Of a stretch of DNA of 64,000 bases, positions 226 through 19,139 are shown piece after piece. The translations under genes and the position numbers were made by a program. The notes beneath the pieces were generated by a model, which was not told where the DNA came from, ran no database searches, and worked only from the letters and a program-made list of their open reading frames with translations. Origin of the DNA: Phycisphaerae bacterium (lineage in GTDB: Bacteria > Planctomycetota > Phycisphaerae > UBA1845); NCBI GenBank assembly GCA_022072505.1, contig JAJVHU010000031.1, positions 17,974 through 81,973 on the forward strand. Reading direction: 5' to 3'. Positions within the stretch are counted from its first letter, which is position 1; each line of letters starts with the position of its first letter.

Positions 226-3200
226 ATGCGCACGCTCATCACTTTCGGTGTCCGCAATCCGGTGTCGGCCAACGTGCTGATGCTGTGTCTGATCGCCGGC
301 GGATTCTACGCCGCGCGACACATCGTTCGAGAACGGTACCCGGAGTTTTCAATCGACCGGATCGCCGTGGAGGTGGTCTATCCCGGCGCGGGTCCGGCGG
401 ACGTTGAGACCGGGGTCTGCACGCCGATCGAGAACGCGATCGAGGGCATCGACGGGATCCGCGAGCTTTCGTCGATCGCATCCGAAGGTCACGGCATCGT
501 GGTCGCCTTTCTGAACGAGGATGCGGACACGATGCGCGCCCTGGACGACATCCGTCTGGCGGTGGACCAGGCGGACCACCTTCCCGCGGAAGCGGAGGAG
601 CCCGTCGTGCGCGAGATGGTGCTGCGGACGGGAGTGGTGAATCTTGCGTTGTCGGGAGAGGTTCCGGAGACGGTACTGCGGGACGTGGCGCGCGAGGTGG
701 AGCGGGAACTGCGGTCGCTGCCGGGGATTTCGCAGACCGCGATCTGGGGCGTGCGGGACCGCGAGATTCTCATCGAGGTCCGGGAGGACACGCTGCGGGC
801 GTATGCGCTGTCGTTCGAGGAGGTCATGCGGGCGGTGGCGTCCAACAGCCTGGATCTTCCGGCGGGCGTGCTGCGGACGGCGCGTGAGGAGCTGGTGCTG
901 CGGGTGACGGGGCGGCGGATGACGGCGTCGGAGTACGACGACCTTGTCGTGCTGTCCCGTCCGGACGGGACGGCGGTGCGCCTCGGGCAACTGGCGACGG
1001 TGCGTGAGACGTTCGAGGACGCGGCGATCGAGTCCCGCTTCGACGGGGCGCGCTGCGCGGTGATCGCCGTGTACAAGACGCCGGAGCAGGACACGATCCT
1101 GATATCGAAGGCGGTGCGTGAATACGCGGCGGCGAAGCAGAGGGAACTTCCGCCGGCGCTGAAGCTTTCGGCGTGGGCGGACGGTTCGATCGAGATCGAC
1201 GGCCGGGTGCGGATGCTGCTGTGGAACGGGCTTCAGGGCGTGGCGCTGATGGTGGGGGCGCTGGGGTTCTTCATGCGTCCGCGGGTGGCGTTGTGGGTGA
1301 TGACCGGTTTGCCGGTGGCGTACGCGGGAGCGCTGCTGGTGATGTATTTCACCGGGCACACGATCAATATTCTGAGTCTTTTCGCGCTCATCATGGTGAG
1401 CGGGATGATCGACGACGACGCGATCGTCATCAGCGAGAGCATCTACGCGAGGAGTCGCCGCGGCGAGGACGCGGACACGGCGACGATCGAAGGCGTGATG
1501 GACGTGGCGATGCCGGTGGTGGCATCGTCGTTCACGACGATCATCGCGTTCATCCCGCTGTTCTTCATCGTGGGCATCATGGGCAAGTTCGTGCGTGAGG
1601 CGCCGCTGGTGATCATCGCGGCGCTCGTGGCGTCGCTGGTGGAGGTGCTGCTGATTCTGCCGCCGCATCTTCGCCACCACGGCGGACTGGAGGCGGCGGG
1701 GGGGGAGGCGCCGGCGCGGTCGCGCTTTCGCCGAGCGCTGGATGGCGCGATGGAGCGGGTGATCGAGCGCGTGTACGCGCCGACGTACCGCTTCGCGCTG
1801 GCGCATCGTTATGCGTTCCTGTCGGGGGCGACGGCGCTGGTGCTGATCGGCGCGGGGCTGGTGGCGGGAGGAAGGCTTCCGCTGGTGCTGCTGTCCAGCG
1901 ACGACAACACGATTCTGCGGGCTCGAGTCGAGCTTCCCGAGGGGACGCCGGCGGACGTCAGCCGGCGGATCACGTCGGAGCTGGAGGCGGGGGCGTGGGC
2001 GCTGAACGCCGATCCGGAGCTGAAACCGCGGCGCGACGGGGCGCTGGTGCGCCACGTTTATGCGACGCTCGGGGCGTGGAACGACTTCCTCCCCCGCCGC
2101 GGCAACAACCTCTGCGAAGTGAAGATCGAGCTGATGCCGCCCGGGCAGCGGTGGATCCGCGACCGCGACCTCGTGGATCGGTGGCGGCGCGCCGTCGGCG
2201 ACATCCCGGAGGCGACCTCGTTCGTGATCGAAGCGGACGGCATCGCGCCGACGGACCGACCGATCGAGATCCGCCTGCTGGGGCCGGACCTCGACAATCT
2301 GCGCGAGGCGTCGGACCGCCTTCAGGAGCGGCTGGCGGAGTTCAGCGGCGTGCGCTCCGTGTATGACGACATGATCGCGGGGAAGCGCGAGCTTCAGGTG
2401 AGTTTGCGTCCGGAGGCGCGGATGCTCGGGCTGACGGTAGCGGACGTGGCGACGCAGCTTCGGCAGGGATATTTCGGCGGCGAGGCGCTGCGCCTTCAGC
2501 GGGATCGCGAGGAGGTTCAGGTGCGCGTGCGCTACCCGCTCGACGAGCGGCAGTCGCTGTCGGCGCTGGAGAACATCCGGTTCCGGACGGCGGCGGGGAC
2601 GGAAGTGCCGTTTCATGAGGCGGTGGACGTGACGTGGGTCCGCGGACCGGCGGCGATCCGGCATGAGAACGGGATGCGGAAGGTCGAGGTCTACGCGGAT
2701 CTGGACGAGCGTCTCGCCAACGCGGAGCAGATTCTCTCGCACCTGACGCCGGCGTTTCTTCCGGAACTGGTCGCGGCGCACCCGGGGATGCGGTTCCGGG
2801 TCGCGGGTCAGCGGCAACTGGTGGACGAGTCTTTGCGGAGTCTTGCGGCCGGGGCGGCGATCGCGATGGCGGGGATGTACGTGATGCTGGCGGTGACGCT
2901 GGGGTCGTACTACCAGCCGCTGATCATCATGTCGGCGATCCCGATCGGGCTGGTGGGCTCGCTGCTGGGGCACGTGGCGATGGGGTTCGACCTTTCGTTG
3001 ATGAGTCTTTTCGGGATGCTCGGTCTGGCGGGCATCGTGGTGAACAACGTGCTGGTGCTGATCGACTTCATCAACGCGCGCCTGCGTCAGGGGGCGACGG
3101 TGATCGACGCGGTGGTGGAATCCGGGAAGGCGCGGTTCACGGCGGTGGCGTTGACGTCGATCACGACGGTCGTCGGGCTGATTCCGGTGTCGCTGGACAC

Positions 3201-3435
3201 GAGCGGCGAGGTCTACAGCGTGATTCCGATGGCGATCTCGCTGGGATTCGGGCTGACGTTCTCGACGGGGGTGACGCTGGTGCTGGTGCCGGCGATCTAC
3301 CTTGCGTTCAACGACGTGCGTCGGGCGGCGCGGTGGGTCTTCCGCGGCGGGGCATACCCGTCTCGGGAGGAGGTTGAGCATTTCGCGGCGCGGCGCGGCG
3401 ACGCGGGCGCCGTTGCGGCGGGAGGCGTGACGTGA
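226..3435 (+). CDS. RND-family efflux transporter, inner-membrane pump (AcrB/MdtF-like)
   Basis: A proton-driven inner-membrane exporter of the resistance-nodulation-division superfamily, normally working with a periplasmic adaptor and an outer-membrane channel. The product is about 1069 residues, the usual family length. The N-terminus (LITFGVRNPVSANVLMLCL) is the first membrane helix. A large periplasmic loop follows, then a helix cluster from about residue 330, a second periplasmic loop after about residue 550 and a last helix cluster near the C-terminus. The aspartate pair of transmembrane helix 4, used for proton relay in AcrB, is present in GMIDDDAIVISES near residue 393. The start chosen is ATG 226; GTG 205 would add seven residues and lies against the repeat. 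The stop overlaps the TolC-like gene by 4 bp. No adaptor gene follows, so it probably lies to the left of the window. Substrate unknown. Confidence 0.93.
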   Translation: MRTLITFGVRNPVSANVLMLCLIAGGFYAARHIVRERYPEFSIDRIAVEVVYPGAGPADVETGVCTPIENAIEGIDGIRELSSIASEGHGIVVAFLNEDADTMRALDDIRLAVDQADHLPAEAEEPVVREMVLRTGVVNLALSGEVPETVLRDVAREVERELRSLPGISQTAIWGVRDREILIEVREDTLRAYALSFEEVMRAVASNSLDLPAGVLRTAREELVLRVTGRRMTASEYDDLVVLSRPDGTAVRLGQLATVRETFEDAAIESRFDGARCAVIAVYKTPEQDTILISKAVREYAAAKQRELPPALKLSAWADGSIEIDGRVRMLLWNGLQGVALMVGALGFFMRPRVALWVMTGLPVAYAGALLVMYFTGHTINILSLFALIMVSGMIDDDAIVISESIYARSRRGEDADTATIEGVMDVAMPVVASSFTTIIAFIPLFFIVGIMGKFVREAPLVIIAALVASLVEVLLILPPHLRHHGGLEAAGGEAPARSRFRRALDGAMERVIERVYAPTYRFALAHRYAFLSGATALVLIGAGLVAGGRLPLVLLSSDDNTILRARVELPEGTPADVSRRITSELEAGAWALNADPELKPRRDGALVRHVYATLGAWNDFLPRRGNNLCEVKIELMPPGQRWIRDRDLVDRWRRAVGDIPEATSFVIEADGIAPTDRPIEIRLLGPDLDNLREASDRLQERLAEFSGVRSVYDDMIAGKRELQVSLRPEARMLGLTVADVATQLRQGYFGGEALRLQRDREEVQVRVRYPLDERQSLSALENIRFRTAAGTEVPFHEAVDVTWVRGPAAIRHENGMRKVEVYADLDERLANAEQILSHLTPAFLPELVAAHPGMRFRVAGQRQLVDESLRSLAAGAAIAMAGMYVMLAVTLGSYYQPLIIMSAIPIGLVGSLLGHVAMGFDLSLMSLFGMLGLAGIVVNNVLVLIDFINARLRQGATVIDAVVESGKARFTAVALTSITTVVGLIPVSLDTSGEVYSVIPMAISLGFGLTFSTGVTLVLVPAIYLAFNDVRRAARWVFRGGAYPSREEVEHFAARRGDAGAVAAGGVT

Positions 3436-5012
3436 GTCGCAGGGTGCGTCGCGTTTCAGCAGCGTGGGCGGCGGCGCTGGCGCTGATCGGCGGATGCCGC
3501 GGTTTCGAGGAAACCGTCGCTCGGTACAAGTCCGTGCCGCGGGAGTTCGACGTTCGCCCCGCGCGACGGTCTGCCGTCGAAGCCTCGTTGCACGCGGACG
3601 GCGCGCGTCCCGAGACCGCCGCCCCGGAAACACCGGTCAATCTGCTCGACGAAAACGGCGTGCTCACGCTGGAGCGCGCCATCGAGCAGGCGTTGCGCGG
3701 GAATCCCGACCTTCAGGCGGCGCTGGCCCGCCTCGAGGCGGCACAGGCCCGCGTCGGTCAGGCGCAGGCGGCGTACTGGCCGCTCGCGGCGTTCACGCAC
3801 GCATCAAGCCGGACGTTTCACACGCCCGCCAGCCGCAACCGGTTGGCGCTGGGTCTTCAGCAGCCGACGATCCTCACGACCCCGTCGGACTCCTCCAGCC
3901 TGCTGGATCTCACGACGATCCTCGGGCTGCTGCGTCTGCCGTTATTCAGCAATCTCGATCTGAAGGGCGACCGCAACTCGTTCAGCGAGCACACGACGGC
4001 GTTCAGCCTGTCGTGGCTGGTGTACGACGGGTTCGCCCGCGAGGCGCGGGAGCGAGCGTCGCGTCATCTGGAGTCGGCGTCGAAAGCGGCGCGGGAGGAC
4101 GCTGCGCGGTTGATCCGGCGATCGGTGACCACGGCGTATCATCAGGCGCAGCTCGGCGAGGGGCAGCTTCGGATCGCCGCCGCGGACGAGGCGTTCGGGC
4201 GGGAGCAGCTCGAGGCGACCCGCCGGTTGCTGGCGGCGCAGAAGGCGGCGCCGACGGACGTGGCGAACTTCGAGCTTCGCGTGACGGCGGCGCAGGCGAA
4301 TCTCGCGGCGGCGCAGGGCATCCGGGACACGAGTCTGGTCGTGCTGGCGGAATTGCTGGGGTTGGCGGGAGGCCGGCTTCCGGAGGGGGCTCGCCTTGCC
4401 GAGCTTTCGGTGGAGACGGCGGAGGAACTGTCCGCTCCCGACGCGACGCACTGGCTTGCGGAGGCGGCGAGGCAAAGGCCCGACCTGCGGCAACTGGAGG
4501 CGTTCCTGCGGAGTCAGGATGAGAACGTCCTGGCGGCGCAGGCGCTTTACAGCCCGATGATATCGCTCACGGCGTCGTGGGGGTTCACGCGTCCGTCGAA
4601 CATCGAGTACAGCGTCGAGGATCAGGCGACGGCGGCGGGCGTCGAAATGCGCTGGGACATCTTCACCGGCGGGATGCGCCGTCAGAAGGTGCTCGAGGCC
4701 GGGGCGCTGCGGCGTGAGGCCGAGGCGCTGCTGCGCCGGCAGCATCTGGCCGTCGAGTCCCAGGTCCGGCAGGCGGTGATCGAGGTCGTGCGGGCGCAGC
4801 GTGAGATCGAGCTGAACGCGCGGGCGGTCGAGATGAGCCGGCAGATCCGTGACGCGGTCCGTGCCGGGTATGACGCCGGCAAGGAGACGCTGACGCGGCT
4901 GAATGAGACGCAGCGCGACTACATCACCGCGGACGCCGAGCTGATCCTGTCGCGCATCCGTCTGCGCGAGGCGTGGAACGAGCTGCGCTCCGCGGCCGGG
5001 TCGCCGCCCTGA
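3432..5012 (+). CDS. TolC-family outer-membrane efflux channel lipoprotein
   Basis: Outer-membrane factor expected to complete the tripartite pump with the preceding RND transporter. It has 526 residues. The N-terminus has a hydrophobic stretch ending in LIGGC, a lipobox, so the mature protein is probably acylated on Cys, as in OprM/NodT-type factors. Two long alpha-helical repeats follow (from about 75 and about 330), rich in Ala, Gln, Glu and Arg, each opening with the family-typical pattern (LEQALRGNPDL-like; ARQRPDLRQLEAFL). A Gly/Leu/Phe-rich segment in the middle matches the beta-barrel part. The GTG start overlaps the upstream stop, which implies translational coupling. Confidence 0.92.
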   Translation: MSRRVRRVSAAWAAALALIGGCRGFEETVARYKSVPREFDVRPARRSAVEASLHADGARPETAAPETPVNLLDENGVLTLERAIEQALRGNPDLQAALARLEAAQARVGQAQAAYWPLAAFTHASSRTFHTPASRNRLALGLQQPTILTTPSDSSSLLDLTTILGLLRLPLFSNLDLKGDRNSFSEHTTAFSLSWLVYDGFAREARERASRHLESASKAAREDAARLIRRSVTTAYHQAQLGEGQLRIAAADEAFGREQLEATRRLLAAQKAAPTDVANFELRVTAAQANLAAAQGIRDTSLVVLAELLGLAGGRLPEGARLAELSVETAEELSAPDATHWLAEAARQRPDLRQLEAFLRSQDENVLAAQALYSPMISLTASWGFTRPSNIEYSVEDQATAAGVEMRWDIFTGGMRRQKVLEAGALRREAEALLRRQHLAVESQVRQAVIEVVRAQREIELNARAVEMSRQIRDAVRAGYDAGKETLTRLNETQRDYITADAELILSRIRLREAWNELRSAAGSPP

Positions 5013-5039
5013 CCGGGCACGAGGGTTTCGCGCGGTTCG

Positions 5040-5438
5040 CTACAGCGGCTGCTGCGCGAGCCAGCGGACGACGTCGGCGTGCAGCGAATCCACCGGAAGG
5101 GTGAGAAGCTCGTCCTTGCGGACCCAGCGGTGTTCGACGCGCGGCGGTTGCGGCGGGCGCTCGCCGAGCACACCGCAGAAGAAGTACCGCAGCGTTACGG
5201 GTCTGCCGTCCAGCACGGCGGCGATCGGGGGCTGACCCACGTCGACCTCCAGCCTCATGCCCAGCAGAGACTCTCCGCAGCGGCGCATTGCGGCTTCGCA
5301 GGACTCTCCGGGCATCGTCTCTCCCGTCGGAAAGGTCCACGGCGCGGCCGGATCGTCCGCCGCGCGGCAGACGAGGTAAGCGTTGTCAAAGCGCTGGATC
5401 AACCCGATGACGCGCGTGTTCGCCCAGAGGTCAGGCAT
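5040..5438 (-). CDS. NUDIX-fold protein with degenerate NUDIX box
   Basis: A 132-residue protein with the fold signature of MutT/NUDIX hydrolases: an N-terminal strand (NTRVIGLIQRFDNAYLVCR), a TFPTGE turn and a helix where the NUDIX box should be. The box reads GETMPGESCEAAMRRCGES. Against G-x5-E-x7-R-E-U-x-E-E-x-G-U it keeps G, the first E, the R and the last G, but the metal-binding glutamates are Cys, Ser and Leu. Pyrophosphohydrolase activity is therefore doubtful; a nucleotide-sensing or binding role is possible. Last gene of the minus-strand run that begins with secA, and it abuts the membrane protein upstream. ATG start. Confidence 0.75.
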   Translation of the reverse strand: MPDLWANTRVIGLIQRFDNAYLVCRAADDPAAPWTFPTGETMPGESCEAAMRRCGESLLGMRLEVDVGQPPIAAVLDGRPVTLRYFFCGVLGERPPQPPRVEHRWVRKDELLTLPVDSLHADVVRWLAQQPL

Positions 5439-5439
5439 G

Positions 5440-6159
5440 TCAGGTCGAAGGTTCCGATGAGGGGCGGTGCGGAGACGGCAGGGGAGAGGCGAGCGGCCAG
5501 GTCATCGACGCGATCCCGAACGAGAACAGCACGATCGACAGCACGACGCGGATCGCCCAGACCCACCGCCGCTGAGGCCTCGCCAGCTCGCGGTTGACGC
5601 CCTCGAACGTCCCCTTCGGAAAGCGTCCGCTGTCGGTGATCCAGCGGATGTAGCCGATCGCGCCGCCGGGCGGATACCGGTCGGAAAGATGCCGACGCAC
5701 CTGGTCTTCGATCGAGTTCATGTACTGATCCTTGTTCATGCCCTCCGGCAGGCGCGTCCGCGCCTCGACCGCGAGGTTGGCGATGTCGCGCGGGAGCCCG
5801 ACGATCTCGCCGCGGATCGACAGTCCCCAGCCGACGAGCACGATCAACGTCGTTCCGACGAGCACGTGCGCTTTCCGGACCGGACGACACCGCGCCGCGA
5901 CGCGGTAAACCGAAGCGCCGATCACCAGCCCGAAAAGGGCGTAGAAAAAAAGCCCGAGGTACGCCATCAAAAAGGAAACGTACGACAGCAGCACGCCGAA
6001 GGGCGCCGCCAACGCGCATCCGACCGCCACGGCCGCCGCCCAGCGCCCCCTCGGCCTCGCCGCGGAGACCGGCGGCGCGCTCCGCACGACGGACGCGGCT
6101 GAACCCGTCTCGCGGGACGCCGAGGGTTGTTCGATCGCCGGCGGCACCAACTTGCTCAT
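5440..6159 (-). CDS. hypothetical multi-pass membrane protein
   Basis: 239 residues, family not recognised. A charged, Pro/Ser-rich N-terminus of about 40 residues precedes two close hydrophobic segments (about 40-62 and 64-88), a third (about 98-114), a soluble region of about 90 residues containing YPPGGAIGYIRWITDSGRFP, and a final membrane segment (about 203-225). The N-terminus and the two closely spaced helices resemble small planctomycete inner-membrane proteins of unknown role, but this is only an impression. It is 6 bp from the DUF190 gene and directly abuts the NUDIX-like gene, so the three are probably co-transcribed. Confidence 0.7.
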   Translation of the reverse strand: MSKLVPPAIEQPSASRETGSAASVVRSAPPVSAARPRGRWAAAVAVGCALAAPFGVLLSYVSFLMAYLGLFFYALFGLVIGASVYRVAARCRPVRKAHVLVGTTLIVLVGWGLSIRGEIVGLPRDIANLAVEARTRLPEGMNKDQYMNSIEDQVRRHLSDRYPPGGAIGYIRWITDSGRFPKGTFEGVNRELARPQRRWVWAIRVVLSIVLFSFGIASMTWPLASPLPSPHRPSSEPST

Positions 6160-6165
6160 TGCTGA

Positions 6166-6507
6166 TTACCGCCCCTTCGACGCACGGTACCAGACCACCT
6201 CGACCTCCTCGATCGTCGCCAGACCCTCGCGGATCAGTCCGTCCAGATGCGCCAGGAAGGCGTCGATCTTCGCTCGCTCATCCACGATCTCGATGATCAG
6301 CGGGAGATCCTCGCTGAGCCGCAGCACCCCGGCGGCATGCACACGCGAGTTCGCCCCGAACCCCATCACGCCCTTGACCACCGTTGCGCCCGCCAGATGC
6401 TGCTCGCGCGCCTTCAGGACGATCGCCTCGTGCAGCGGACGACCCTCCGCGCGGTCGGATTCTCCGATGAAGATCCGCAACCGCGTCGCTCTGGCAGGAA
6501 GGCTCAT
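6166..6507 (-). CDS. DUF190 family protein
   Basis: A small soluble protein of 113 residues with the features of DUF190: RLRIFIGESDRAEGRPLHEA at the N-terminus, a central GATVVKGVMGFGA glycine-rich turn, then DLPLIIEIVDERAKI, a ferredoxin-like fold related to PII proteins. DUF190 genes frequently sit beside crcB, as here, so a link to fluoride handling or to regulating the channel is suspected in the family but not proven. The start at 6507 (MSLPARATRLR) is preferred over an in-frame codon six residues upstream. The biochemical role is unknown. Confidence 0.85.
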   Translation of the reverse strand: MSLPARATRLRIFIGESDRAEGRPLHEAIVLKAREQHLAGATVVKGVMGFGANSRVHAAGVLRLSEDLPLIIEIVDERAKIDAFLAHLDGLIREGLATIEEVEVVWYRASKGR

Positions 6508-6625
6508 GAACGTCAGTCCTCGCACCGGCGGCGATCCGAATCCCGCCGGGAGAATGTATCACGGAGCGCCGCTCGGCGCAACCGCAGGGCTTCACCGCGC
6601 GTCGACGCTCCCCCGCCCGCACGCC

Positions 6626-7012
6626 TCATGACCCCGCCTCCCGGCGCGCCAGCCAGCATCCGGCGTATACCGCGATCATGCACAGGCCGACGCTCCCGAG
6701 CACGTTCCCCGCCGCCCGGACGAACTGCCCGGACTGAATCAGTTTCAGCGTCTCCCACGAGAAACTGCTGAACGTCGTGTATCCGCCGAGCACGCCGATG
6801 AGCACCGCCGCGCGAAGTCGCGGGTCCGCCGCCGCCGCGTCAAACCTCGTCGCCAGGAACCCGATCAGCAGGCAGCCGGAGACGTTGACGGCCAGCGTCC
6901 CCCAGGGAAACCCGATCGCCCGCCCCTGAACCCAGCCGGACAACAGGTAGCGCAGGGCGCTGCCCGCCGCCCCGCCGACCGCCACCGCCAGGACTCGACT
7001 GAAGGTTTCCAC
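6626..7012 (-). CDS. crcB: CrcB/Fluc fluoride ion channel
   Basis: A 128-residue four-helix membrane protein of the Fluc family, a dual-topology dimer that exports fluoride passively. The diagnostic motifs are all present: GGAAGSALRYLLS in helix 1, GTLAVNVSGC (the Asn lining the pore) in helix 2, and GVLGGYTTFSSFSWE in helix 3, which contains the helix break and the phenylalanine box. A single gene is enough for a homodimeric channel. It lies 50 bp after secA and upstream of the DUF190 gene on the same strand. No fluoride riboswitch was evident in that 50-bp gap. Very confident. Confidence 0.96.
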   Translation of the reverse strand: METFSRVLAVAVGGAAGSALRYLLSGWVQGRAIGFPWGTLAVNVSGCLLIGFLATRFDAAAADPRLRAAVLIGVLGGYTTFSSFSWETLKLIQSGQFVRAAGNVLGSVGLCMIAVYAGCWLARREAGS

Positions 7013-7062
7013 GTCCGGATCGTCACCCTTTCACGAACTGGCGCGCCTCGCGGTCCCGCCCC

Positions 7063-11271
<4,209 letters not shown>

Positions 11272-12947: not shown

Positions 12948-14498
12948 ATGCGCCCGCGCAGGATCGGCGGGCGCGATATGTGTTGGGCGCACGTCCGGCC
13001 GGAAGCATGCCTCGGTCCCGGCGTGGACGACGCCGATCTCATCCGCATCATGCGCCACCACGATCGTCCATCCGACGTTCTCGAAACCGGCGCCGTGCCC
13101 GCGGCGCCGGCGCCGGTGGTTCCGTTGCTGTCGTACCAGCGGGAGGACGTTGAGGCGGAGGATCGCTTCCGCTGGAACTGCTGGGCGCGGCAGACGGGGA
13201 AGAGCTTCACGAAGGCGCTGCGGCGGTTGCTGCGTGGATTGGCGCGGCGGCGCAATCAGATCTTCCTGTCCGCCGGGCTTCGGCAATGCACGGAACTGAT
13301 GAGCAAAGTGCGGCAGCATTGTCAGGCGCTTCAGGTGGCGTGCGACTACCACGGGTTTGATGCCTTGGCGGAGCTTCGGGAGCGGCGGCTGGAGGTCACG
13401 CTGCCCGGCGGAGTGCGGATCATCGGTCTGCCCGCGAACCCGGCGACGGCGCGCGGATTCAGCGGCGACGTGCTGCTGGACGAATTCGCGATGCACGGCG
13501 ACGACCGGGCGATCTGGGCGGCGTTGTTCCCGACGCTGCTGCGCGGCGAGGGCGAACTGGACGTGGCGTCGACGCCGAAGGGGCGCGGCAACGTGTTCCA
13601 CGAGCTTTCGTTCAACGAGGCGTTCGGCCGGTCGATCGTGACGCTGCCTCAGGCCGTCGCGCAGGGGCTGGAGGCGGACGTGGAGGCGGTGCGGCGGGCG
13701 ATGGGCGACGAGGAACTGTTCCGTCAGGAGTTCCTGTGCGAGTTCCTTGACGAATCCACGGCCTTCCTGACGTACGACCAGATCCGCGGGTGTCAGTCCG
13801 AGTCCTGCCGGCCCGCGGCAAGCGTGGAAGCGCTCGCGGAGATCGCGGCGTCAGACGGCGTTGCCGCGCGACATGCCGGCGTGGAAGCGGGCCGAGACTG
13901 GTTCGCCGGCGTGGATGTCGGTCGAAAGCACGATCTGACGGTGATCTGGGTGCTTCAGCGGAGCGGCGGACCGGGATGCGGGCCGGTGTCGGACTCCGCG
14001 ACAGCCGCGGCGTCCGACGCGCGGAGATACGTGACGGTGGGCCTGATTGAGTTGAGCCGCGCGCCGTTTACACGGCAGTGGGACGCGCTTGCGGGATTGC
14101 TTCGGCTCGGGCGGTTGCGTCGCTGCGTGATCGACGCGGGCGGGATCGGGATGGCGCTGGCGGAGGAGGCGGAGCGCGTTTTCGGATCGGGTCGCGTCGA
14201 AGCGGTCACGTTCACCGCGCCGTTCAAGTCGGCGGTCGCGATCGCGTTGCGACGTGAAGTGGAGGCGCGGCGCCTGGTGATCCCCGCGAATGACCGGGTG
14301 CTGCATGACTGGCGCAGCGTCGAGCGGGACGTCACGCCGATCGGGCACCTGAAGCTGACCGCGCCGCGCGGCGCTTCGGGGCACGCGGACCGTTTCTGGG
14401 CCGCCGCACTCGCGCTGCACGCCGCCGGTCAGGCGCCGGTTGAAAAAAGCGCGCTGACGCTTCCGGCGGGAATGTTCTCAGCCCGCGGCGCGTGGTGA
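12948..14498 (+). CDS. Phage-type large terminase (ATPase-nuclease), isolated
   Basis: A 516-residue protein with both halves of a large terminase, the motor and nuclease that packages phage DNA. A Walker A variant CWARQTGKS lies near residue 79, Walker B with catalytic acid VLLDEFAMH near 174, a coupling-motif-like STPKGRGN near 206, and an RNase-H-fold nuclease start GVDVGRKHD near 322, with further acidic residues at VIDAGGIG (about 400) and near HADRFWAAALALH. Similar proteins related to gp28 of Mu-like prophages are known. No portal, capsid, tail or integrase gene is nearby, so this is either a relic or a gene used for another purpose. The reading frame is intact. The start is uncertain; ATG 12948 is the first in frame. 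Confidence 0.85.
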   Translation: MRPRRIGGRDMCWAHVRPEACLGPGVDDADLIRIMRHHDRPSDVLETGAVPAAPAPVVPLLSYQREDVEAEDRFRWNCWARQTGKSFTKALRRLLRGLARRRNQIFLSAGLRQCTELMSKVRQHCQALQVACDYHGFDALAELRERRLEVTLPGGVRIIGLPANPATARGFSGDVLLDEFAMHGDDRAIWAALFPTLLRGEGELDVASTPKGRGNVFHELSFNEAFGRSIVTLPQAVAQGLEADVEAVRRAMGDEELFRQEFLCEFLDESTAFLTYDQIRGCQSESCRPAASVEALAEIAASDGVAARHAGVEAGRDWFAGVDVGRKHDLTVIWVLQRSGGPGCGPVSDSATAAASDARRYVTVGLIELSRAPFTRQWDALAGLLRLGRLRRCVIDAGGIGMALAEEAERVFGSGRVEAVTFTAPFKSAVAIALRREVEARRLVIPANDRVLHDWRSVERDVTPIGHLKLTAPRGASGHADRFWAAALALHAAGQAPVEKSALTLPAGMFSARGAW

Positions 14499-17917: not shown

Positions 17918-18420
17918 TCATCCGCTCAAGCCGTGTTTTGACTTCCGCGCCTTGTTCCAGGCGGACCGTCTTCGGCGAGAGGCGAGCATCGAGGCGAGGA
18001 AAATGACCCTGCCCCGCAGCCGTCGTCCGAAATGGTGGGCGAGAACCAGCATGACACGGGCGTTGAGGTTCAACCGGTTCAACTCGTCGTGCAGGTCGTG
18101 GTCGAGGAACCGGTCTGCTCGGGGGACGCCGGCGTTGTTCTCGAGCAGGCCGATGTCAAGGCCATGCGTGGCCTCAGCGATGACCGGCAGAAAGTCGCTC
18201 GCCGCCATATCCACGGGAACGATCCGGGTCCGGACGGCATCGCGGCGTTCGAGTTCGCCGACCACTCTTTTCAGCCGGTCCTCGCGCCGGGCGATCAGCA
18301 CAAGGTGGACGCCTTCGGAGGCGAACTGTCGGGCGAAGGCTTCGTCGATCCCGGACGAAGCGCCCGTCACCACGACCCAGGGGCCGAAGCGGGCCTTTTC
18401 GAGGGCGGGGAGAAGCGGCC
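17918..18420 (-). pseudogene. Broken short-chain dehydrogenase/reductase gene
   Basis: The N-terminal two thirds of an SDR are readable: RFGPWVVVTGASSGIDEAFA (the second glycine of GxxxGxG is Asp), LIARREDRLKRVV, DIGLLENNAGVPRADRF with the NNAG motif, and RGRVIFLASMLA. The active-site YxxxK and substrate-binding C-terminus are missing; after VIFLAS the reading turns into a short basic tail. A stop codon lies in frame upstream of the conserved start region, and no good start or ribosome binding site precedes GTG 18373. Interpreted as a decayed gene. Confidence 0.75.
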
Positions 18421-18519
18421 CTCCGACGCGCCGTCACGGATCGAGAGACCTTGAAACAAGCGATCTTCGCAGTCATACGCGAGAGCGACGACTGGATTCG
18501 AACTCGCTACTGTAGTGCC

Positions 18520-18845
18520 TCATTGATACTGCATCTTATGCGCCTCATGGGCTCGCGCGATTTTGGGGAGGATGTCGGCCAGGTCGGCGGTCCAGGTGAA
18601 GGGGCTGGGCGTTTTGTTGTATTCGCGGATGTAGTCCTCGATGGCCTTCACCAGCGCGTCGGATGCGTTGGACGGTGATCTCGCGGAACCCGCGTTCGAT
18701 GATGTTCAGCCATGAGCTGGACGTCGGAATGAAGGGCATAGGGAACCGCGGATGCCGCGTCAGCCAGGCCCGGACTTTGGCATGCTTGTGCGTGCTGTCG
18801 TTGTCGGCGATGAGGTGCAGGTCCAGATGGGGCGGGCGGGTGGCA
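18520..18845 (-). pseudogene. IS630-family transposase C-terminal remnant, frameshifted
   Basis: On the minus strand one frame reads DLHLIADNDSTHKHAKVRAW, then LTRHPRFPMPFIPTSSSWLN and IERGFREITVQRIRR, the typical second-aspartate and SSWLN..E block of IS630 DDE transposases. After about 18650 the match continues in the next frame (LVKAIEDYIREYNKTPSPFT, then DLADILPKIARAHEAHKMQ) to a stop at 18520. One frameshift plus the absent N-terminal half make it inactive. Terminal inverted repeats were not found. Confidence 0.85.
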
Positions 18846-19139
18846 CGGCCTGGCGTACTCGCCAGGCCGTGGGTTATGTTCGTTGTGCTTATCATCCGTC
18901 CGTCCGGTGAGGGCCAACACGGAGCATCCTCCGTAGACTCCCCTGGTGTTCGCCTCTTCCGGGCCGGGAGCGGCTCTGACGCAGGCATCCAAGCCCGCTT
19001 TACCAGTGGCGAGCCGCTCCCCTTCGCTGCGCTCCGCCATCCGCGGCTGGGTCAGGCAGATGGCGTTCGTCAGTCAGTGAGGCGATCTGACTGCACGCCT
19101 CGGAGATGCGTGCCTACCCAGTGGCCAGAACGTCGACTT

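Follow-up and report, generated by a model that had tools for sequence, protein, structure and literature searches.

According to PMC10883770, PMC9662315 and PMC11841831, the gene transfer agent (GTA) of Rhodobacter capsulatus, RcGTA (Rhodogtaviriformidae), is encoded by phage-derived packaging and structural genes that lie in the host chromosome, descend mostly vertically and occupy several loci. BaGTA of Bartonella and BhGTA of Brachyspira are described in PMC9662315 as separate phages that were exapted and whose particle genes were vertically kept, and the same source evaluates three independently exapted GTA groups with an established genetic basis. The true prevalence of GTAs is not known, as they look like the remains of prophages and their genes are dispersed across loci (PMC11841831). 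Among the titles and abstract openings listed from the openly available literature, none reported a GTA in Phycisphaerae or other Planctomycetota, or a Mu head domesticated by them.

Here, we analyzed a 64-kb stretch of DNA (the window) from a Phycisphaerae genome. It contains a large terminase (TerL) gene that the initial annotation had taken for an orphan. With a probability of roughly two-thirds, this TerL is the packaging motor of a domesticated, GTA-like element whose genes function together as a gene transfer agent. That the genes constitute a domesticated phage particle kit, passed down vertically within a Phycisphaerae order, is very probable. Likewise to RcGTA, phage-derived packaging and structural genes are found in a cellular genome, and they descend mostly vertically and are divided among several loci. 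In contrast to RcGTA, the portal, protease and gpT capsid are of Mu type, the phylum is different, most genomes lack a recognized sheath or tape measure family, and no small terminase was recognized beside TerL. Particle formation and DNA transfer are here inferred from the genes. The likeness to BaGTA and BhGTA, whose hosts are alphaproteobacteria and spirochetes, concerns their described origin and inheritance.

The terminase gene and its partners in the window's genome

TerL is encoded on the forward strand by an open reading frame (ORF) at positions 12948 to 14498 of the window (516 amino acids). The ORF matched Terminase_6N (E = 2.1e-13) and Terminase_6C (E = 2.7e-6), both above the curated Pfam cut-offs, as well as PHROG terminase families (best E = 2.2e-32), and a profile of the TerL family matched solved phage terminases, including the DNA packaging protein Gp17. 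The alternative terminase model PF03354 had no match in the genome and was discarded; the gene belongs to the Terminase_6 type, and a PF03237 search recovered one such terminase from the genome.

Key residues were invariant in all 34 sequences of an alignment of TerL relatives. These included W22, R24, Q25, G27, K28 and S29 of WARQTGKS (13182 to 13205), the acidic pair D121 E122 (13479 to 13484) and the STP motif S151 T152 P153 (13569 to 13577), which we take to be Walker A, Walker B and, probably, ATPase motif III, respectively. The acidic residues D266 (13914 to 13916), D339 (14133 to 14135) and D424 (14388 to 14390) were equally invariant and, from their positions, are presumably the first, second and third residues of the nuclease triad. 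All of these motifs are on the forward strand, and the codons for R24, K28, S29, D121, E122, D266, D339 and D424 were confirmed in the window DNA. The earlier description of the ATPase and nuclease motifs as intact is thereby upheld. Judged by its sequence, the gene is a genuine large terminase with ATPase and likely nuclease residues, in the arrangement that defines this family (an N-terminal ATPase bearing Walker A and B motifs, followed by an RNase H-like C-terminal nuclease that carries acidic residues).

The beginning of the ORF is probably untranslated. Over 37 aligned codons, positions 12948 to 13082 shared only 54% identity with the nearest relative and had a dN/dS of 1.1, while the remainder was 90% identical with a dN/dS of 0.165, and the TerL profile match starts at 13083. 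As the first 135 bases show no constraint, the true coding sequence probably extends from the GTG at 13095 to 14498 (forward strand, 467 amino acids), or begins just downstream; the in-frame start codons at 13116 and 13125 are possible.

Head and tail gene profiles matched nothing in the 64-kb window other than TerL, and neither a phage structural gene nor a defense gene was present among the eight neighboring ORFs scanned. The claim that no other phage gene surrounds TerL is thus correct for the window as tested and incorrect for the genome, in which portal, protease and capsid genes are located on another contig. The reported proximity to transposase debris holds loosely, as a DDE_3 transposase fragment is found 4 kb away at 18545 to 18988. 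It adjoins a short-chain dehydrogenase ORF of only 151 amino acids (17918 to 18988 for both). The alignment of the window's genome (G000) with that of a congener (G003) starts at 12953, only slightly 5' of the TerL gene, which indicates that a rearrangement struck there. Upstream flanks are unlike even between these two genomes, so the location is not fixed. In G000, the regions upstream of the TerL locus and of the portal locus shared no motif longer than 10 bases. A comparison of neighbors revealed no upstream gene common to many loci that could represent a small terminase beside TerL; one may be encoded elsewhere.

TerL is located on contig C13 of G000, and the head genes are on contig C23 (locus L083). 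The matches there were to a Mu-type portal (C23:3582-4634; E = 3e-86) and a Mu-type major head protein (C23:6752-7630; best piece, E = 1.3e-31). The corresponding open frames in L083 encode the portal (3321-4700), head protease (4703-5785), virion structural protein (5854-6618), capsid or major head protein (6701-7648) and gp36 head-tail adaptor (7939-8382), and are accompanied by three small conserved genes (c8, c7 and c12). All eight genes are open and lie on a single strand inside 6.6 kb; genes beyond the cluster had no match to any cluster profile. The recommended search for portal and capsid genes elsewhere was therefore successful for both, and the label "orphan" is wrong at the level of the genome because the partner genes are on another contig. 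A DNA methyltransferase gene lies upstream of the cluster, and direct repeats, their offsets being multiples of 20 bases, were observed upstream of the portal gene (L083, ~3040-3190). The G003 contig carrying locus L084 (G003:C4:25000-35290) ends in sequence that matches the methyltransferase gene by the G000 cluster at its 3' end; the L084 portal (8820-10291) matches over its first ~70% and continues in unrelated sequence.

Purifying selection on particle genes is a feature of gene transfer agents, and it was detected here. The dN/dS was 0.165 for TerL (G000/G003) and ranged from 0.034 to 0.21 for the portal, protease, structural protein, capsid and gp36 genes (G000/G001; portal, 0.186; capsid MCP, 0.034). 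The host references SecA and glutamate dehydrogenase (GDH) had values of 0.09 and 0.065, respectively. Higher values were obtained for a 72-codon part of c8 (0.49) and for the truncated G003 portal compared with that of G000 (0.285).

The capsid module is broken or missing in two of the three congeners. In G003, the portal is interrupted and no gpT was present among the matches listed, although the contig ends there, and G002 retains portal fragments, c7, c12 and one weak gpT match elsewhere. TerL is open in both genomes, so a terminase outliving its capsid does occur nearby. The order's kit could thus be domesticated and yet be failing in the window's species, with the displaced TerL on its way out. 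A TerL dN/dS about twice that of SecA and a long branch leading to G000 and G003 in the TerL tree are compatible with such decay. However, the eight C23 genes are all open in G000, the capsid has a dN/dS of 0.034 between G000 and G001, and the TerL catalytic residues are intact; we consider a failing kit unlikely.

Occurrence, gene order and descent across the order

Among 60 genomes of the window's order, a TerL homolog was found in 47, a portal in 51 and a gpT capsid in at least 51, four of them weakly. At least 41 genomes encode all three when the weak gpT matches are excluded; these include G029 and G057, with a phage-type or divergent TerL. Seven genomes had none of the three among the matches listed, and only two of these (G036 and G038) reach a completeness of 90% or more. 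A class-wide search yielded matches in 89 of 397 genomes at an E value of 1e-30, from which no family rates were drawn. The non-phage-type TerL relatives in the order are 50 to 90% identical. Ten named records carry TerL: four are assigned to Phycisphaerae, three to Phycisphaerales, two to Planctomycetota and one (L040, Alphaproteobacteria bacterium IP29b_bin.190) to Alphaproteobacteria. The last seems identical to a contig of G007, a member of the window's family, and is probably a mislabeled bin.

Gene order was compared by running the cluster-gene profiles over 32 widely flanked non-phage-type loci, namely, the window, L043-L072 and L074. The portal directly follows TerL in 28 of these loci, and the order TerL-portal-protease-structural protein-capsid-gp36 is present in 22, in which the frames are nearly all open. 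No portal was found beside TerL in the window, the congener loci L043 and L044, and L063, and six loci end with the portal or protease gene. Two genes are divided between two frames, namely, the portal of L060 (G043) and TerL of L074 (G007). Genomic neighbors of TerL vary among genera. Conservation and synteny in relatives, which had been proposed as a check, are thus evident, and most of the loci compared carry ordered, mostly open head genes downstream of TerL in place of the degraded prophage that would have spoken against the initial annotation.

Two families depart from or extend this arrangement. Five of the six f4 genomes encode the portal-to-gp36 genes without the usual TerL adjoining; one of the five, G057, has a divergent copy elsewhere. 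In the f4 loci L096, L097, L098 and L100, small conserved genes follow gp36, one of them with a hydrophobic stretch that, by eye, might be holin-like; its L097 copy had no significant Pfam match. In five of the six f8 genomes (L061, L062, L068, L071 and L072), the head cluster is followed by c10 as a shared flank, the L061 copy of which matches a QueD-like PHROG family.

As in known GTAs, the genes are spread over several loci. In G000, TerL and the capsid lie on separate contigs (C13 and C23) with other genes flanking both on each side, and in G011, which is a single contig, TerL and the portal are at 2.44 Mb and the capsid is at 0.42 Mb, 2 Mb apart. The capsid is also apart from TerL in five of the six f5 genomes, in each of which the sequence extends far enough on at least one side for a neighboring capsid to be visible. 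The sixth genome, G055, has a protease-capsid block 6.6 kb from the portal, and as TerL and the portal are at contig ends, its split may reflect a break in the assembly. The protease is present twice in G011, nearly complete by TerL and the portal (L053) and partial by the capsid (L088), so that the split in this genome may stem from a duplication.

Patristic distances of TerL and the host marker SecA were correlated with an r of 0.860 in 39 genomes, compared with 0.226 for the best of 2,000 label permutations. These 39 remain of the 47 genomes with TerL after omission of G007, G030, G031, G037 and G057 (fragmentary or divergent matches), G029 (phage type) and G025 and G026 (SecA absent from the set). 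The portal (r = 0.822, 36 genomes), capsid MCP (0.614, 35 genomes) and protease (0.703, 35 genomes) were also correlated with SecA, and the best permutations across the four genes ranged from 0.226 to 0.372. Tree topologies matched in part: TerL shared 10 of 36 splits with SecA, the portal 12 of 33, the capsid 13 of 32 and the protease 20 of 32, compared with at most 3 in 500 shuffles of the labels, and each gene had 2 to 3 well-supported conflicts (TerL, 3). As TerL and the portal share only 7 of 28 splits, and the portal and capsid MCP only 8 of 26, single-gene topologies are noisy.

The 41 non-phage-type TerL sequences form a clade (support, 0.994) relative to the eight phage-type copies in the tree, and families f5 and f8 are each monophyletic with a support of 1.0. 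In a control with 26 genomes, GDH had an r of 0.25 with SecA, compared with 0.87 for TerL, while both shared 8 of 23 splits with SecA; owing to its paralogues, GDH is a poor host marker. On these distances, TerL divergence tracks host divergence. The long-term vertical inheritance that characterizes GTAs is therefore indicated by one host marker, SecA, with which the splits are shared in part.

Tail genes, Mu-like relatives and competing readings

Tail genes were sparse among the 60 genomes. The tail sheath (PF04984) was detected in two, and the tape measure (PF10145) in three above the cut-off and in nine at an E value of 0.001, and their absence from most genomes, which bears on delivery, counts against the GTA reading. 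Predicted folds suggest that c7 resembles a tail tube protein and that c15, which is found in lineages without c8, c7 and c12, resembles a baseplate hub. The c7 model, of modest quality (mean pLDDT, 68), aligned with tail tube proteins with a best Z of 9.6 (108 residues; rmsd, 3.2), and Foldseek against viral models returned 41 matches with E values of ≤0.001, many of which bear the annotation tail tube or major tail protein. An RcGTA virion chain aligned with c7 with a Z of 7.2 (rmsd, 6.9), a common level for the tool. The c15 model had a low overall confidence (mean pLDDT, 48); about 310 of its N-terminal residues aligned with baseplate hubs such as Mu gp44 (Z, 9.2; 186 residues; rmsd, 3.5), and the seven Foldseek matches at E ≤ 0.001 were mixed. 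If these predictions are correct, a very short tail is possible. A PDB sequence search with c15, c7 and c6 returned nothing significant. The candidate relationships of c8 and c7 to c6 were rejected, as profile comparisons showed no similarity, as was that of c6 to Mu Gp37 (E = 0.15, not significant). No receptor-binding protein was identified with confidence.

Among the closest known systems are two Mu-like phage loci. A viral contig from IMG/VR (L042) and a prophage (L073) carry TerL, portal, protease and gp36 genes homologous to those of the order's clusters, and L042 also shares the virion structural protein and capsid genes in identical order. Unlike these clusters, L042 and L073 carry genes for a MuA-like transposase and what we take to be a MuB-like ATPase, and their TerL falls outside the order's clade. 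L042 additionally has Mu F between the portal and protease. Relatives of the L073 MuA-like transposase were detected in 14 of the 60 genomes, on a contig with a phage-type terminase, portal or capsid in nine of these 14, and never on contigs of non-phage-type clusters. The transposase was not found in G000, and Mu F was found in none of eight genomes tested; these two were the propagation or accessory genes searched for. The association of a MuA-type transposase with structural genes that typifies Mu-like transposable phages is therefore not a property of the order's non-phage-type clusters. The nearest TerL proteins of named phages (Alteromonadaceae phage B23, Rhodovulum phage vB_RhkS_P1 and Pasteurella phage AFS-2018a) are homologous over 91% of the query but only 33 to 35% identical to it. 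Among the 12 of 82 matches listed, the best-covered one had 34.6% identity, and the highest identity was 36.6% over 72%.

Capsid-forming phage-inducible chromosomal islands are mobile and carry an integrase and regulators. The clusters described here share with them head genes that lack a recognized sheath or tape measure in most genomes, and Mu-like prophages are found in some of the same genomes. A satellite that makes heads and takes its tails from a helper phage might therefore be envisaged. However, in G000 and G011, head genes and terminase do not form one mobile island: split over distant loci, they could not move as a unit. Distances also follow the host across an entire order, and tail-like folds are predicted inside the operons, so that we regard a satellite as improbable.

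A particle kept for another purpose than transfer, such as killing or DNA storage and release, could draw on the hub-like c15 and tube-like c7, which may together make an injection tip, and would be in keeping with the uncertain receptor-binding protein. That the portal, protease and capsid have been retained together with a terminase whose catalytic residues are intact nevertheless suggests DNA packaging, and we give such uses little credence.

Ordinary prophages or their remnants, acquired many times independently, would account for the differing genomic neighbors among genera, the partial match of gene and host topologies and the related Mu-like prophages in the order. Repeated capture is disfavored by the wide presence of the genes, the distance correlation with SecA, the monophyly of families and the position of phage-type copies outside the clade. 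Although topology leaves it room, we consider it very improbable. Finally, recruitment of TerL alone for defense or another DNA-cutting role, as the initial annotation had considered, found no support and can practically be dismissed, for although G002 and G003 have an open TerL with no usable capsid set found there, TerL accompanies the portal and head genes in most compared loci, and its eight neighboring ORFs in the window include no defense gene.

A candidate gene transfer agent in Planctomycetota

The preferred reading, a domesticated kit functioning as a GTA, was among the guesses of the initial annotation and fits the data because of the purifying selection, the host-tracking divergence and the membership of TerL in a conserved set of head genes. 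The element would go back to a Mu-type phage acquired by a forebear of this Phycisphaerae order. The phage would have lost its transposase, while the host line retained the packaging and structural genes and handed them down vertically. Upon expression, the portal, protease and capsid would assemble into a small head, which TerL would fill with pieces of the host chromosome. As no small terminase was recognized beside TerL, packaging would perhaps have little sequence preference. The gp36, c8 and c7 proteins could then seal the head and make up a short tail, and released particles would carry DNA to kin. In the window's genome, a rearrangement presumably parted TerL from the head operon, as may also have happened in G011 and most sampled members of f5.

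We also lean toward regarding the kit as a further independent origin of GTAs, in Planctomycetota, from a stripped Mu-type phage with a minimal tail that is order-wide and has its loci split in several lineages. By this account, the stripped set would consist of TerL, portal, protease, virion structural protein, capsid, adaptor and minimal tail, with neither a small terminase nor a tape measure recognized.

If this is true, the GTA phenomenon would extend to another phylum, with a Mu-type head and an apparently minimal tail. The order would offer a natural setting in which to test how few genes suffice for a particle that still transfers DNA, and isolated terminase genes found elsewhere would merit the same genome-wide check.
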